From Cupriavidus alkaliphilus (GTDB taxonomy: Bacteria > Pseudomonadota > Gammaproteobacteria > Burkholderiales > Burkholderiaceae): DNA of 64,000 nt. The stretch lies in NCBI RefSeq assembly GCF_900094595.1, contig NZ_FMAD01000004.1, forward strand, positions 1-64,000, written 5' to 3'. Shown in pieces: positions 47,979 to 59,841 of this stretch. The first letter of the stretch is position 1, and every line of letters starts with the position of its first letter. A program made the translations under genes and the position numbers. The notes beneath the pieces are model-generated. The model was given only the letters and a program-made list of their open reading frames with translations, was not told the DNA's origin and ran no database searches.

Positions 47979-48008
47979 ATACGGTATGTGATATATCAGG
48001 TAAGTCAA
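47979..48008 (-). promoter_or_regulatory. oxlT promoter overlapped by oxalate-regulon element (site A)
   Basis: On the minus strand TTGACT (48008-48003) is 16 bases from TACCGT (47986-47981). Between and over the -10 lies the element that reads GTATGTGATATATCA on the plus strand (47984-47998), centred on the palindrome TGATATATCA. The surrounding 21 bases (47979-47999) are identical to those at 59596-59616 before oxc. The overlap with the core promoter suggests repressor control. Confidence 0.72.
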
Positions 48009-48513
48009 GCGTATTCGTCGCGGCTGTGCAGCATTCAGCCGCGTTACCTGGCGCCTTAACCGTCACTGCGTGCGTGCGACTGGTGTGCACGCAGCATCAA
48101 TGTCGGTTCCGGCGACATCAAGAGTCATTGGAAATCAAGCAGTTACCTCGCGTTGGATCATAAATCGGCCAACGCACGGCATCCGCAAGCATGCCGGGGA
48201 TCGCGCCATCGAAAAACCGGGAAAACGATCAGTTCGGGAAAGTCCCTAGATGCAGACATGGATGCCTGGCCGTGTCCGTTTCGATATGGCAGGTCGTTGA
48301 ATCCACTCGGGTCCTGGCACACACAGCGCCGATGGCGAGACCAGAAACGCGCGCGAAGAGGCGCCAGGGCGTTCGCTATAGCGAACTGAGAGGAAGATAA
48401 GGAGGGATGAGGAGAGTGGCGGCCGTGCTCGCCGTAATGGTCGCAAGGGATGCCGGCCGCTACAGCCCTTGCCAACGGCGCTTCAGCGCGAAAGCGCTGC
48501 GCGCCGGCGTGCT
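48009..48513. other. Region without a supported gene
   Basis: Upstream of the oxlT promoter this stretch holds only short open frames on both strands without ribosome sites or recognisable products. The one longest on the plus strand (48153-48389) shows no conserved-looking composition. CAGCGC-GAAA-GCGCTG at 48484-48499 is a perfect hairpin just past the end of the small membrane-protein gene, with no T tract. Confidence 0.45.
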
Positions 48514-48732
48514 TCAGGCATAGGCGAGTTCGCCAGCGGCCGGCACGATGCGCGACGCGCTGGTGCGGCCCACGCCGTCGCTGTGCTGGTTCGAGCCCAG
48601 GCCGGCAAAGCGGCCGTGATCCTGCGCGGTTACCAGAACATCCATGGGCAGGCGCGTGGCCAGCAGCGTGGTCACGCCCACACCGACAGCAATCAGGGCC
48701 AGGCCAAGGGCGACGAGAAGAGCGACTTCCAT
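48514..48732 (-). CDS. 72-residue single-span membrane protein, candidate oxalate-regulon member
   Basis: I do not recognise a family. GGAG lies eight bases before the ATG. The product begins with a hydrophobic helix (VALLVALGLALIAVGVGVTTLLA) followed by a soluble tail (TAQDHGRFAGLGSNQHSDGVGRT), so it should sit in the inner membrane. It has an excellent promoter (48768-48796), and a close variant of the element found before oxlT and oxc lies just upstream of that promoter. Its function in oxalate metabolism is unknown. Confidence 0.68.
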   Translation of the reverse strand: MEVALLVALGLALIAVGVGVTTLLATRLPMDVLVTAQDHGRFAGLGSNQHSDGVGRTSASRIVPAAGELAYA

Positions 48733-48767
48733 TTTGAAAACTCCGAACGTTGTGATCAGGAGTTTTC

Positions 48768-48796
48768 ATTATATGCTGCGCCGCACTATGTGTAAA
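48768..48796 (-). promoter_or_regulatory. Sigma-70 promoter of the 72-residue membrane protein gene
   Basis: On the minus strand TTTACA (48796-48791) and TATAAT (48773-48768) are 17 bases apart, close to the ideal sigma-70 arrangement. The predicted transcript starts about 28 bases before the start codon. Confidence 0.8.
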
Positions 48797-48802
48797 TATC
48801 CT

Positions 48803-57625: not shown

Positions 57626-57664
57626 GTTCGTCTCCTATTGGATTAGGGGGTGAAATCGGGTGAA

Positions 57665-59404
57665 TTACTTCTTGGCCGAGCTTTGCGGATTGAGGTTGGT
57701 CAGGCGGCCGCTTTCGGTGCCGGCAGCCGGGTCGATGACGGCGTTGACCAGCGTCGGCCTGCCCGAGCGCAGCGCTTCGTTCACGGCGGCTTCGAGTTCC
57801 GCCGGCGTGGTGACATTGGCGCCGACGCCTCCGAACGCTTCCATCATCTTGTCGTAGCGGGCGCCCGGGACGAAGGTCGTGACCGCCGGGTCGGTGCCGC
57901 CGGTGGGGTTCTTGTCGATGCCCTTGTAGACGCCGTTGTTGTTGAAGATGACGATGCAGACCGGCAGGTTGTAGCGGCAGATGGTCTCGACTTCCATGCC
58001 CGAGAAACCGAATGCGCTGTCGCCGCACAGCGCCAGCACCGGCTTGCCGGTCTCGACCGCCGCTGCCACCGCGTAGCCCATGCCCACGCCCATCACGCCC
58101 CAGGTGCCAACGTCCAGGCGCTTGCGCGGCTCGTACATGTCGATCACGGCGCGGGCGTAGTCCAGCGTGTTGGCGCCCTCGTTGACGAACGAGATGCCCG
58201 GGTTGGCCTTGACCACGTCCTTGAGCACGCCCAGCGCACCATGGAAGTTCATCGGCGCGGCATCCTTGGCCCTGGCCAGGGTCTCGGCCATCTTCGCCAG
58301 GTTGGTGTCCCTGCGGTCCGCCACCGCGTTCAGCCAGTCGGCGCCCGGCTTGGCGAAGTCATTGCCGATCTTGTCGAGCAGCGCCGTTACGCACGAGCCG
58401 ATGTCGCCCACAACCGGCGCGGCGATGGCGACGTTGCTGTCCATCTCGGTCGGCGCGATGTCGACCTGGATGAACTGCTTGGGCTTGCCCCAGGTCTTGC
58501 CCTTGCCGTGCGACAGCAGCCAGTTCAGGCGGGCGCCGACCAGCAGCACCACGTCGGCTTCCGCCAGCACATAGGAGCGCGCCGCCGACGCCGACTGCGG
58601 ATGGGTATCGGGCAGCAGGCCCTTGGCCATCGACATCGGCAGGTACGGGATGCCCGTCTTCTCGACCAGCTTGCGCAGGTCCGTCTCGGCGCGTGCGTAC
58701 GCGGCGCCCTTGCCGATCAGGATCAGCGGGCGCTTGGCGGTCTTCAGCAGCGCGACGGCGCGGTCGACCGAGTCCGGTGCGGGCAGCTGGCGCGGCGCCG
58801 GGTCCACCACCTTGATCAGCGACTGCTTGCCCTTTTCGGCTTCCAGCGACTGGCCCAGCAGCTTGGCCGGCAGGTCCAGGTACACACCGCCCGGACGGCC
58901 CGACACGGCGGCGCGGATGGCACGGGCGACACCGACACCGATGTCTTCGGCGTGCAGCACGCGGAACGCAGCCTTGGCGTGCGGACGGGCGATGGCCAGC
59001 TGGTCCATCTCTTCGTAGTCACCCTGCTGCAGGTCGACGATCTCGCGCTCGCTCGAGCCGCTGATCAGGATCATCGGGAAGCAGTTGGTGGTGGCGTGCG
59101 CCAGCGCCGTCAGCCCGTTCAGGAACCCCGGCGCGGAAACAGTCAGGCAAACGCCCGGCTTCTGCGTCAGGAAGCCCGCAATGGCCGCGGCGTTGCCGGC
59201 GTTCTGCTCGTGGCGGAAGCTGATGACGCGCATGCCGTTGGCCTGCGCCAGACGGGCCAGATCGGTGACCGGGATGCCGGGCAGGCCGTAGATGTTTTCG
59301 ATGCCGTTCAGCTTCAGCGCGTCGATGACCAGATGGAAACCATCGGTTTGTGCCTGCTGCTCTTCCGCGGCGTGACGCTGCAGCTCGTTTCCGACTTCTG
59401 CCAT
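57665..59404 (-). CDS. oxc: Oxalyl-CoA decarboxylase
   Basis: The 579-residue thiamine-diphosphate enzyme converts oxalyl-CoA to formyl-CoA and CO2. It shows the Pyr-domain Glu and start (LKLNGIENIYGLPGIPVTDLA, FRHEQNAGNAAAIAGF) and the PP-domain magnesium motif (ALCGDSAFGFSGMEVETICR through IVIFNNNGVYKG). It is upstream of frc in one operon. The long 5' leader starts at a promoter covered by the shared GTATGTGATATATCA element. Confidence 0.95.
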   Translation of the reverse strand: MAEVGNELQRHAAEEQQAQTDGFHLVIDALKLNGIENIYGLPGIPVTDLARLAQANGMRVISFRHEQNAGNAAAIAGFLTQKPGVCLTVSAPGFLNGLTALAHATTNCFPMILISGSSEREIVDLQQGDYEEMDQLAIARPHAKAAFRVLHAEDIGVGVARAIRAAVSGRPGGVYLDLPAKLLGQSLEAEKGKQSLIKVVDPAPRQLPAPDSVDRAVALLKTAKRPLILIGKGAAYARAETDLRKLVEKTGIPYLPMSMAKGLLPDTHPQSASAARSYVLAEADVVLLVGARLNWLLSHGKGKTWGKPKQFIQVDIAPTEMDSNVAIAAPVVGDIGSCVTALLDKIGNDFAKPGADWLNAVADRRDTNLAKMAETLARAKDAAPMNFHGALGVLKDVVKANPGISFVNEGANTLDYARAVIDMYEPRKRLDVGTWGVMGVGMGYAVAAAVETGKPVLALCGDSAFGFSGMEVETICRYNLPVCIVIFNNNGVYKGIDKNPTGGTDPAVTTFVPGARYDKMMEAFGGVGANVTTPAELEAAVNEALRSGRPTLVNAVIDPAAGTESGRLTNLNPQSSAKK

Positions 59405-59595
59405 GGTTGCTTCCTTCTATGCAAATTTGACTGGGGTGGGAATTTTTGTGACTCAGGCTGCCGCGGGAGTGCCTGGGGCCCGCTTCGCTACGACTTCCGA
59501 CATGCTTGGTCTCCTTTTCGACTTGTGTTCGTGGTGCGCGGGCGCTGTGCCCTGCTGCGGTCGGTGCCGGTTCCGTTTCGACCGGTCTTGATGAC

Positions 59596-59626
59596 ATACG
59601 GTATGTGATATATCAGAGAACGGCAA
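59596..59626 (-). promoter_or_regulatory. oxc promoter overlapped by oxalate-regulon element (site B)
   Basis: On the minus strand TTGCCG (59626-59621) is 17 bases from TACCGT (59603-59598). The spacer and -10 are covered by the element that reads GTATGTGATATATCA on the plus strand (59601-59615). Bases 59596-59616 equal 47979-47999 before oxlT exactly. The predicted leader to the oxc start is about 185 bases. Confidence 0.72.
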
Positions 59627-59841
59627 GCTATTTTCCATCTCTGTGACCAACTTTCGTCAGTGCACTGCAGCAAACCTGGCTGGATCTGCGCGTAAATCAG
59701 CGCAATTCCTCAATCCACGCCATTTATTCGCATTTCGCACCAATGCAGGCGGTCGATCCGAAATCGCCTTAAAAGGCAATTTCGGATCGCAGATATATCA
59801 CATACAACGTTCGAGCGACCGACCGCGCAGCTTCGATACGG
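59627..59841. promoter_or_regulatory. oxc-pntB intergenic region with 17-base inverted repeat and element site C
   Basis: No gene is supported here. CGATCCGAAATCGCCTT (59754-59770) and AAGGCAATTTCGGATCG (59773-59789) form a hairpin with one mismatch around AA. Two bases further lies GATATATCACATAC (59792-59805), an inverted copy of the oxalate element. The hairpin is 53 bases past the pntB stop and might end that message, although no U tract follows. Confidence 0.6.

Follow-up and report, generated by a model that had tools for sequence, protein, structure and literature searches.

How are the genes for oxalate use in Cupriavidus alkaliphilus controlled, and does one protein act on all of them? 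Oxalate is one of the main acids of plants and fungi, and the bacteria that consume it matter for soil carbon and plant colonisation. We analysed a stretch of 64,000 nucleotides from this organism (contig NZ_FMAD01000004.1, positions 1 to 64,000; hereafter the window), in which a short element, GTATGTGATATATCA, recurs upstream of the antiporter gene oxlT and the decarboxylase gene oxc. It is very likely the operator of an FCD-type GntR regulator, whose gene lies 1.3 kb past the window end and whose predicted role is to repress its targets until oxalate or a close derivative is present; we put the probability of this reading at about 0.83.

A repeated element of the oxalate genes

As the initial annotation had pointed out, the 21 bases at 47979-47999, before oxlT, and at 59596-59616, before oxc, are letter for letter the same. 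A third identical copy precedes frc2 just outside the window, where it forms part of a 29-base match to the oxc region. The close or inverted copies described earlier were also found, with 14 of 15 bases matching at 48803-48817 and, on the minus strand, at 59791-59805. The statement that all copies contain the core TGATATATCA holds for two of the four copies in the window; the site at 48803 has TAATATATCA in its place and that at 59791 has TGATATATCT. Scanning the window with the 15-mer at up to three mismatches gave six strand-matches at four places, compared with a mean of 0.15 and a maximum of 1 in the control of 100 dinucleotide shuffles.

The genome-wide scan that the initial annotation had proposed gave nine sites at up to two mismatches in the 6.1-Mb genome, as against one for the reversed pattern. 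Contig 17 has eight of the nine (47.9-67.4 kb), and contig 22 has the ninth. Exactly seven places in the 6.1 Mb carry the 10-bp core TGRTATAYCA, all of them in oxalate clusters and all among the nine sites, so that the spread over random intergenic positions that would have spoken against a regulon was not observed. Since the reversed core also matches three times on each strand of the genome, the evidence lies in the location of the core sites and not in their raw count. The sites precede oxlT, an open reading frame (ORF) of 72 amino acids (aa), oxc-frc (two sites), frc2 (two sites), the GntR gene, a panE-like gene and, on contig 22, a second oxlT. At the level of sequence, then, GTATGTGATATATCA is a repeated element of the oxalate gene set. 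The sites and genes concerned are as follows.

46557..47876, minus strand: oxlT, oxalate/formate MFS antiporter (TIGR04259, 631 bits, cut-off 335)
47979..47999, plus strand: predicted operator before oxlT; 15-mer exact at 47984-47998; the 21 bases are common to the predicted oxc and frc2 operators
48003..48008, minus strand: predicted oxlT -35 box TTGACT, with the operator core within the spacer and a weak predicted -10 box TACCGT at 47981-47986
48514..48732, minus strand: 72-aa small ORF, with an HGRFAGLG-like stretch
48768..48796, minus strand: promoter-like TTTACA-17-TATAAT of the small ORF (11 of 12 match)
48803..48817, plus strand: predicted operator with one mismatch, just upstream of the small-ORF promoter
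56375..57625, minus strand: frc, formyl-CoA transferase (TIGR03253, 734 bits, cut-off 504)
57665..59404, minus strand: oxc, oxalyl-CoA decarboxylase (TIGR03254, 1043 bits, cut-off 739)
59596..59616, plus strand: predicted operator before oxc; 15-mer exact at 59601-59615
59621-59626 and 59598-59603, minus strand: predicted oxc promoter boxes, -35 TTGCCG and -10 TACCGT
59791..59805, minus strand: second predicted oxc operator, convergent with the first; its 15-mer starts 190 bp further upstream
63785..64000, minus strand: 3' end of frc2, which extends to contig base 65062 (TIGR03253, 636 bits, cut-off 504)
65333-66055, minus strand, beyond the window end: GntR gene
66322-67302, minus strand, beyond the window end: panE/apbA2-like gene
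65066, 65223, 66206 and 67333 on contig 17, beyond the window, and 236622 on contig 22: further predicted operators
Contig 22: second oxlT (TIGR04259, 578 bits, cut-off 335)

The likely GntR regulator and its predicted sites across genomes

According to the initial annotation, the regulator gene was not obvious in the window, and a GntR- or FadR-type gene was to be sought next to a further copy of the motif. The FCD-type gene past the window end has a copy on each side. By its domains, the encoded protein is a member of the GntR superfamily of the FadR/VanR type (FCD): the N-terminal GntR winged helix-turn-helix matches PF00392 with 46.5 bits (cut-off 27), and the C-terminal FCD domain matches PF07729 with 95.2 bits (cut-off 24.3). 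It reaches the cut-off of no NCBIfam model among those listed; PhnR (equivalog TIGR03338, 106.5 versus 271.5 bits) and NanR (65.8 versus 260) are the top-scoring named GntR models, yet lie far below their cut-offs. Among the 120 listed of its 7645 relatives, the names are of GntR type or borrowed ones such as RspR and YdfH, one entry being called formyl-CoA transferase.

The AlphaFold model of the regulator has a mean pLDDT of 83 and six C-terminal helices; FCD regulators, 7u5q, PmiR and VanR/Atu1419 among them, give its best fold matches. PmiR (7xp0/7xp1), Atu1419/VanR (6z74, 6za3), McbR (4p9f) and TM0439 (3fms), which likewise join a GntR winged helix-turn-helix to an FCD helical domain, are among both the best fold matches and the best PDB sequence matches. 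The solved FCD regulators are 21-28% identical in the aligned structures, where no title mentions an action on oxalate genes. Residues H157, H201 and H223 are identical in 33 of 33 aligned regulator sequences and correspond in alignment to the three histidines through which TM0439 binds metal, which are kept here (residues as named in the available part of PMC4746285). The FCD pocket probably contains a metal site formed by His157, His201 and His223.

Co-occurrence of regulator and site was scored in 150 Burkholderiaceae genomes, with the motif defined as the 15-mer at up to one mismatch and oxc scored in the same genomes. The regulator was found in 59, the motif in 47 and oxc in 57; regulator and motif occurred together in 46, the regulator alone in 13, the motif alone in 1 and neither in 90. 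In the oxc-positive genomes these four classes numbered 32, 11, 0 and 14, which places the motif in 32 of 43 genomes with the regulator and 0 of 14 without it. The corresponding numbers for oxc-negative genomes were 14, 2, 1 and 76 (14 of 16 with and 1 of 77 without). Because the motif tracks the regulator in both sets alike, the site follows the regulator and not just the pathway. The counts stratified on oxc rule out that the site merely reflects the presence of that gene. The sole motif genome without the regulator (G010) has a single one-mismatch match. The suggestion that a GntR-like regulator links oxalate import, decarboxylation and the small protein is supported by the GntR/FCD gene flanked by the motif, by the tracking of gene and motif across genomes, and by the small protein's own predicted site.

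We also surveyed 300 genomes at the level of the order, taking the regulator at E 1e-60 and scoring only the best first-look candidates, so that misses are possible. The regulator was found in 5 of the 300 and oxc in 51, and on these counts we rejected the idea of an oxalate regulator shared by every genome with oxc. Outside Burkholderiaceae the regulator has a single carrier in this sample (G315), in which a site with one mismatch lies 1.6 kb from the regulator gene. A 14-mer at up to one mismatch was found in 59 of the 300, including all five regulator carriers; in the other 54 a few matches are exact, and the reversed pattern also matches some of these genomes.

The positions of the sites point the same way. 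The 80 named GntR loci scored here (the best of 194) come mostly from Cupriavidus and Paraburkholderia and contain 212 sites at up to one mismatch. Of these, 205 are situated upstream of a cluster gene at a distance of no more than 450 bases, whereas the reversed pattern gave none; cluster genes were called by tblastn at E up to 1e-3, with the regulator itself, terC and weak paralogues counted. An oxalate gene is present within the fetched stretch of 79 of the 80 loci. Thirteen regions of other genomes of the same genus have the site before oxlT in 10 cases; in the three that lack oxlT, a formate dehydrogenase subunit gene (NuoE/NuoF-like) stands directly behind the operator copy. Among 20 regions with more distant or second copies of the regulator, 19 hold oxc, frc, panE or oxlT and many sites have drifted; the region L192, which ends at a contig edge, holds none of these four genes. 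A regulator relative in Skermanella adjoins a panE gene near transhydrogenase genes, and one in Azospirillum lies near tricarboxylate-transporter and terC genes.

Paired sites occur upstream of frc, frc2 and oxc. Among the loci scanned, all 69 distinct close pairs (selected at 60-330 bp apart and up to two mismatches) face each other, at spacings of 110-272 bp, mostly 150-200 bp. Looping between paired sites is possible, without support from phasing, as the 69 spacings have no clear period of 10-11 bp.

Promoter layout and the predicted direction of control

Promoters were aligned on the core, and boxes were read as -35 and -10 by inference from the consensus. Sites picked at up to two mismatches bias the base frequencies inside the 15-mer, and only positions outside it are independent. 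The majority consensus for oxlT, oxc and frc has a TTGAC or TTGC box before the core and TAC(C/T)GT behind it. The -35-like box is strong in oxlT (25 windows, with CTTGACT as the consensus at at least 85%) and in the second oxlT (14; TTGAC), and forms a weaker majority in oxc (39), frc (36) and frc2 (39; a weaker TTG box), three sets in which second sites of the opposite orientation are included. In the panE consensus (46 windows) the core follows TATAGT, and in that of the small ORF (68 promoters) the operator lies just upstream of a -35-like box. The position of the core inside most of these promoters leads us to predict that the regulator represses sterically and that oxalate or a derivative lifts the repression.

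In the proposed mechanism, a dimer of the regulator would bind the palindromic core and keep RNA polymerase off, from between -35 and -10 at oxlT, oxc, frc, frc2 and the second oxlT, and from just behind -10 at panE. The ligand, presumably oxalate or a close derivative, would lodge in the FCD pocket, probably at the metal held by the three histidines, and the regulator would be released from DNA. The derepressed cell would import oxalate and make oxalyl-CoA, part of which would be decarboxylated to give formate for NADH and part reduced to glyoxylate with NADPH; from the transhydrogenase genes behind frc2 we infer that transhydrogenase could supply the latter. The whole oxalate programme, including the 72-aa protein, is predicted to be switched together in Cupriavidus and Paraburkholderia.

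The same GntR protein might instead be an activator, like CitO of Enterococcus faecalis, and bind together with its ligand. CitO is likewise an FCD regulator of a small-carboxylate pathway, and needs its metal to sense citrate (available part of PMC4746285). It differs in that it activates the citrate genes and in that its metal ligands are Asn-His-His as opposed to three histidines here, a comparison made without alignment. Since the small-ORF operator abuts the -35-like box from upstream, a position used by activators, either direction of control is possible at that promoter. However, the core sits between the -35-like and -10-like boxes in five of the other promoter classes and just behind the -10 in that of panE, positions at which a bound protein would obstruct polymerase, and we consider an activator unlikely. 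The resemblance of TGATATAT to an extended -10 box raises the question of whether the element is simply a promoter element (TGnTATAAT-like) with no dedicated regulator. This is scarcely credible for a core confined to seven places in the genome, all in oxalate clusters, which tracks the GntR gene across genomes and is flanked by separate -35- and -10-like boxes at other spacings. Nor is it at all probable that another local regulator binds the element, such as the product of the LysR gene at 48867-49790, whose 3' end is about 50 bases from the site at 48803: that site keeps a nearly fixed distance to the small-ORF start, and in Paraburkholderia loci the sites are grouped about gntR, several kilobases from the LysR relative, which has no more than 41-52% identity.

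Some observations weigh against repression of these genes by the GntR protein at GTATGTGATATATCA. Thirteen of the 59 regulator genomes have no site at up to one mismatch. Eleven of these belong to g10, with only a relative that is 70-72% identical, and the other two are G081 and G116; in four g10 loci that were opened, and in G081 and G116, sites are present with two or three mismatches. The Fisher values for the 150 genomes overstate the strength of the association, because related genomes, which are not independent, enter the counts uncorrected for kinship. In the order-level sample, 47 of the 51 oxc-positive genomes gave no such regulator at E 1e-60, so that it is not a general oxalate regulator. 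Two of the 80 named loci have no site at up to two mismatches, and one (L113) has no oxalate gene in the fetched stretch. A strict promoter scan supported only the small-ORF promoter and none at oxlT or oxc, where the predicted -10 sequence, TACCGT, is weak. On sugarcane, Burkholderia Q208 induced an oxalate cluster with oxlT almost silent (available part of PMC5116747), which does not fit strict co-expression. Overall, judging from these comparisons, the conserved regulon is real and its regulator has likely been identified.

Local control by an FCD-type GntR protein is of a known kind. A paper by Schneider from 2012 reportedly deals with PanE2. The enzymes found here are the same as those of C. 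necator H16 (frc-oxc, apbA2) and of the reported C. oxalaticus Ox1 operon, for which no regulator or operator is named in PMC9476978 or in the available part of PMC7486775. According to that part of PMC7486775, apbA2 of C. necator H16 is close to frc-oxc, as the panE-like gene is here; deletion of frc-oxc abolished growth on oxalate and deletion of apbA2 slowed it, and the expression of the pathway is said still to need study. The panE-like gene belongs to 2-dehydropantoate 2-reductase subfamily NF005089 (542 bits, cut-off 223), is 93-97% identical to copies in three loci named C. necator and agrees with them in position, and is likely the same gene as apbA2. As a putative oxalyl-CoA reductase of the PanE2/ApbA2 kind, its product would interconvert oxalyl-CoA and glyoxylate. 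We found no regulator of oxalate catabolism in these bacteria in the open-access literature (subscription papers being outside the scope), and no oxalate-gene regulator in PMC9476978 or in the available parts of PMC12927642, PMC10192776, PMC5116747, PMC3886118, PMC8305402 and PMC7057948. Within that literature, this regulator, its operator and the small protein appear to be undescribed. The finding offers a candidate regulator gene with its predicted site and targets, together with a small protein, all amenable to tests in a standard laboratory strain, and possibly an oxalate-responsive switch for biosensors.

The 72-aa protein and neighbouring genes

The small ORF encodes a protein with one hydrophobic N-terminal segment that is predicted to lie in the membrane. 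Its matches in Pfam and NCBIfam are all sub-threshold, with no curated cut-off reached. A profile search gave 278 relatives; among the 120 listed none has a Pfam domain and most are unnamed or hypothetical, with three Cupriavidus entries named oxalate:formate antiporter. Across the loci examined there are 70 distinct forms of 70-90 aa as called (one spurious 366-aa match excluded), and the ORF is present in the fetched stretch of 42 of the 80 named loci. A comparison of 13 diverse members shows ten invariant residues. On this evidence, the ORF is a member of a conserved, unnamed family of small proteins. The ratio of nonsynonymous to synonymous change (pN/pS) is 0.03-0.39 in 35 of 36 Paraburkholderia-type pairs and 0.58 in one; against the window copy it ranges from 0.09 to 0.97 over 10 pairs, so that the distant pairs are no proof of constraint.

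The operator usually starts 85-86 bases before the small-ORF start, and the core-to-start distance is 80-82 in 55 of the 68 promoters with a site; for six of the 70 forms the 140 bases upstream contain no site. In Paraburkholderia-type loci the ORF stands directly upstream of gntR. A tentative proposal, which we regard as rather unlikely, would make the 72-aa protein the founder of a family of small membrane partners of oxalate metabolism, acting with OxlT or with GntR at the membrane and coupling oxalate transport to derepression. Such a role would explain the nearly fixed operator spacing across genera and the placement before gntR in Paraburkholderia.

The remaining genes of the cluster are listed here.

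41815..44637, minus strand: formate dehydrogenase alpha subunit (TIGR01591, 757 bits, cut-off 666), likely on the oxlT transcript
44664..46373, minus strand: NuoE/NuoF-like subunit, probably of formate dehydrogenase, downstream of oxlT
59842..61239, minus strand: pntB, NAD(P) transhydrogenase beta, likely the end of the frc2 operon
61256..62824, minus strand: pntA, transhydrogenase alpha (L010:2257-3825)
62853..63635, minus strand: FAH-family hydrolase gene between pntA and frc2 (L010:3854-4636)
67487-68251, plus strand, beyond the window end: terC

Genes of the DoxX/epimerase (51959-53866), DUF2269 (51519-52679) and FadD8-like (54065-55705) types lie between oxlT and frc with no site of their own. 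The terC gene (L010:8488-9252) is divergent from the panE-like gene, with an operator copy common to both, and 29 terC-side windows align on the same site.

Of 19 regions around further sites, 12 have a homologue of the second oxlT behind the site; the remaining seven have a histone-deacetylase-like gene by the site (two), an HPP-CBS gene (one) or no clear link (four). Operator copies at L178:2800 and L176:2933 stand just before histone-deacetylase-domain genes; a gene of this type also occurs near the panE-gntR pair of Skermanella. At L180:2626 a copy lies 57 bases ahead of the first possible start of a gene for an HPP/CBS-domain membrane protein. In L098 (12484-14238), and likewise in L086, L092, L100, L101 and L106, a thiamine pyrophosphate enzyme is encoded between the operator pair and frc2. 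It resembles acetolactate synthase or hydroxyacyl-CoA lyase, is 26-28% identical to Oxc and reaches none of the NCBIfam cut-offs listed, and possibly represents an alternative oxalyl-CoA enzyme.

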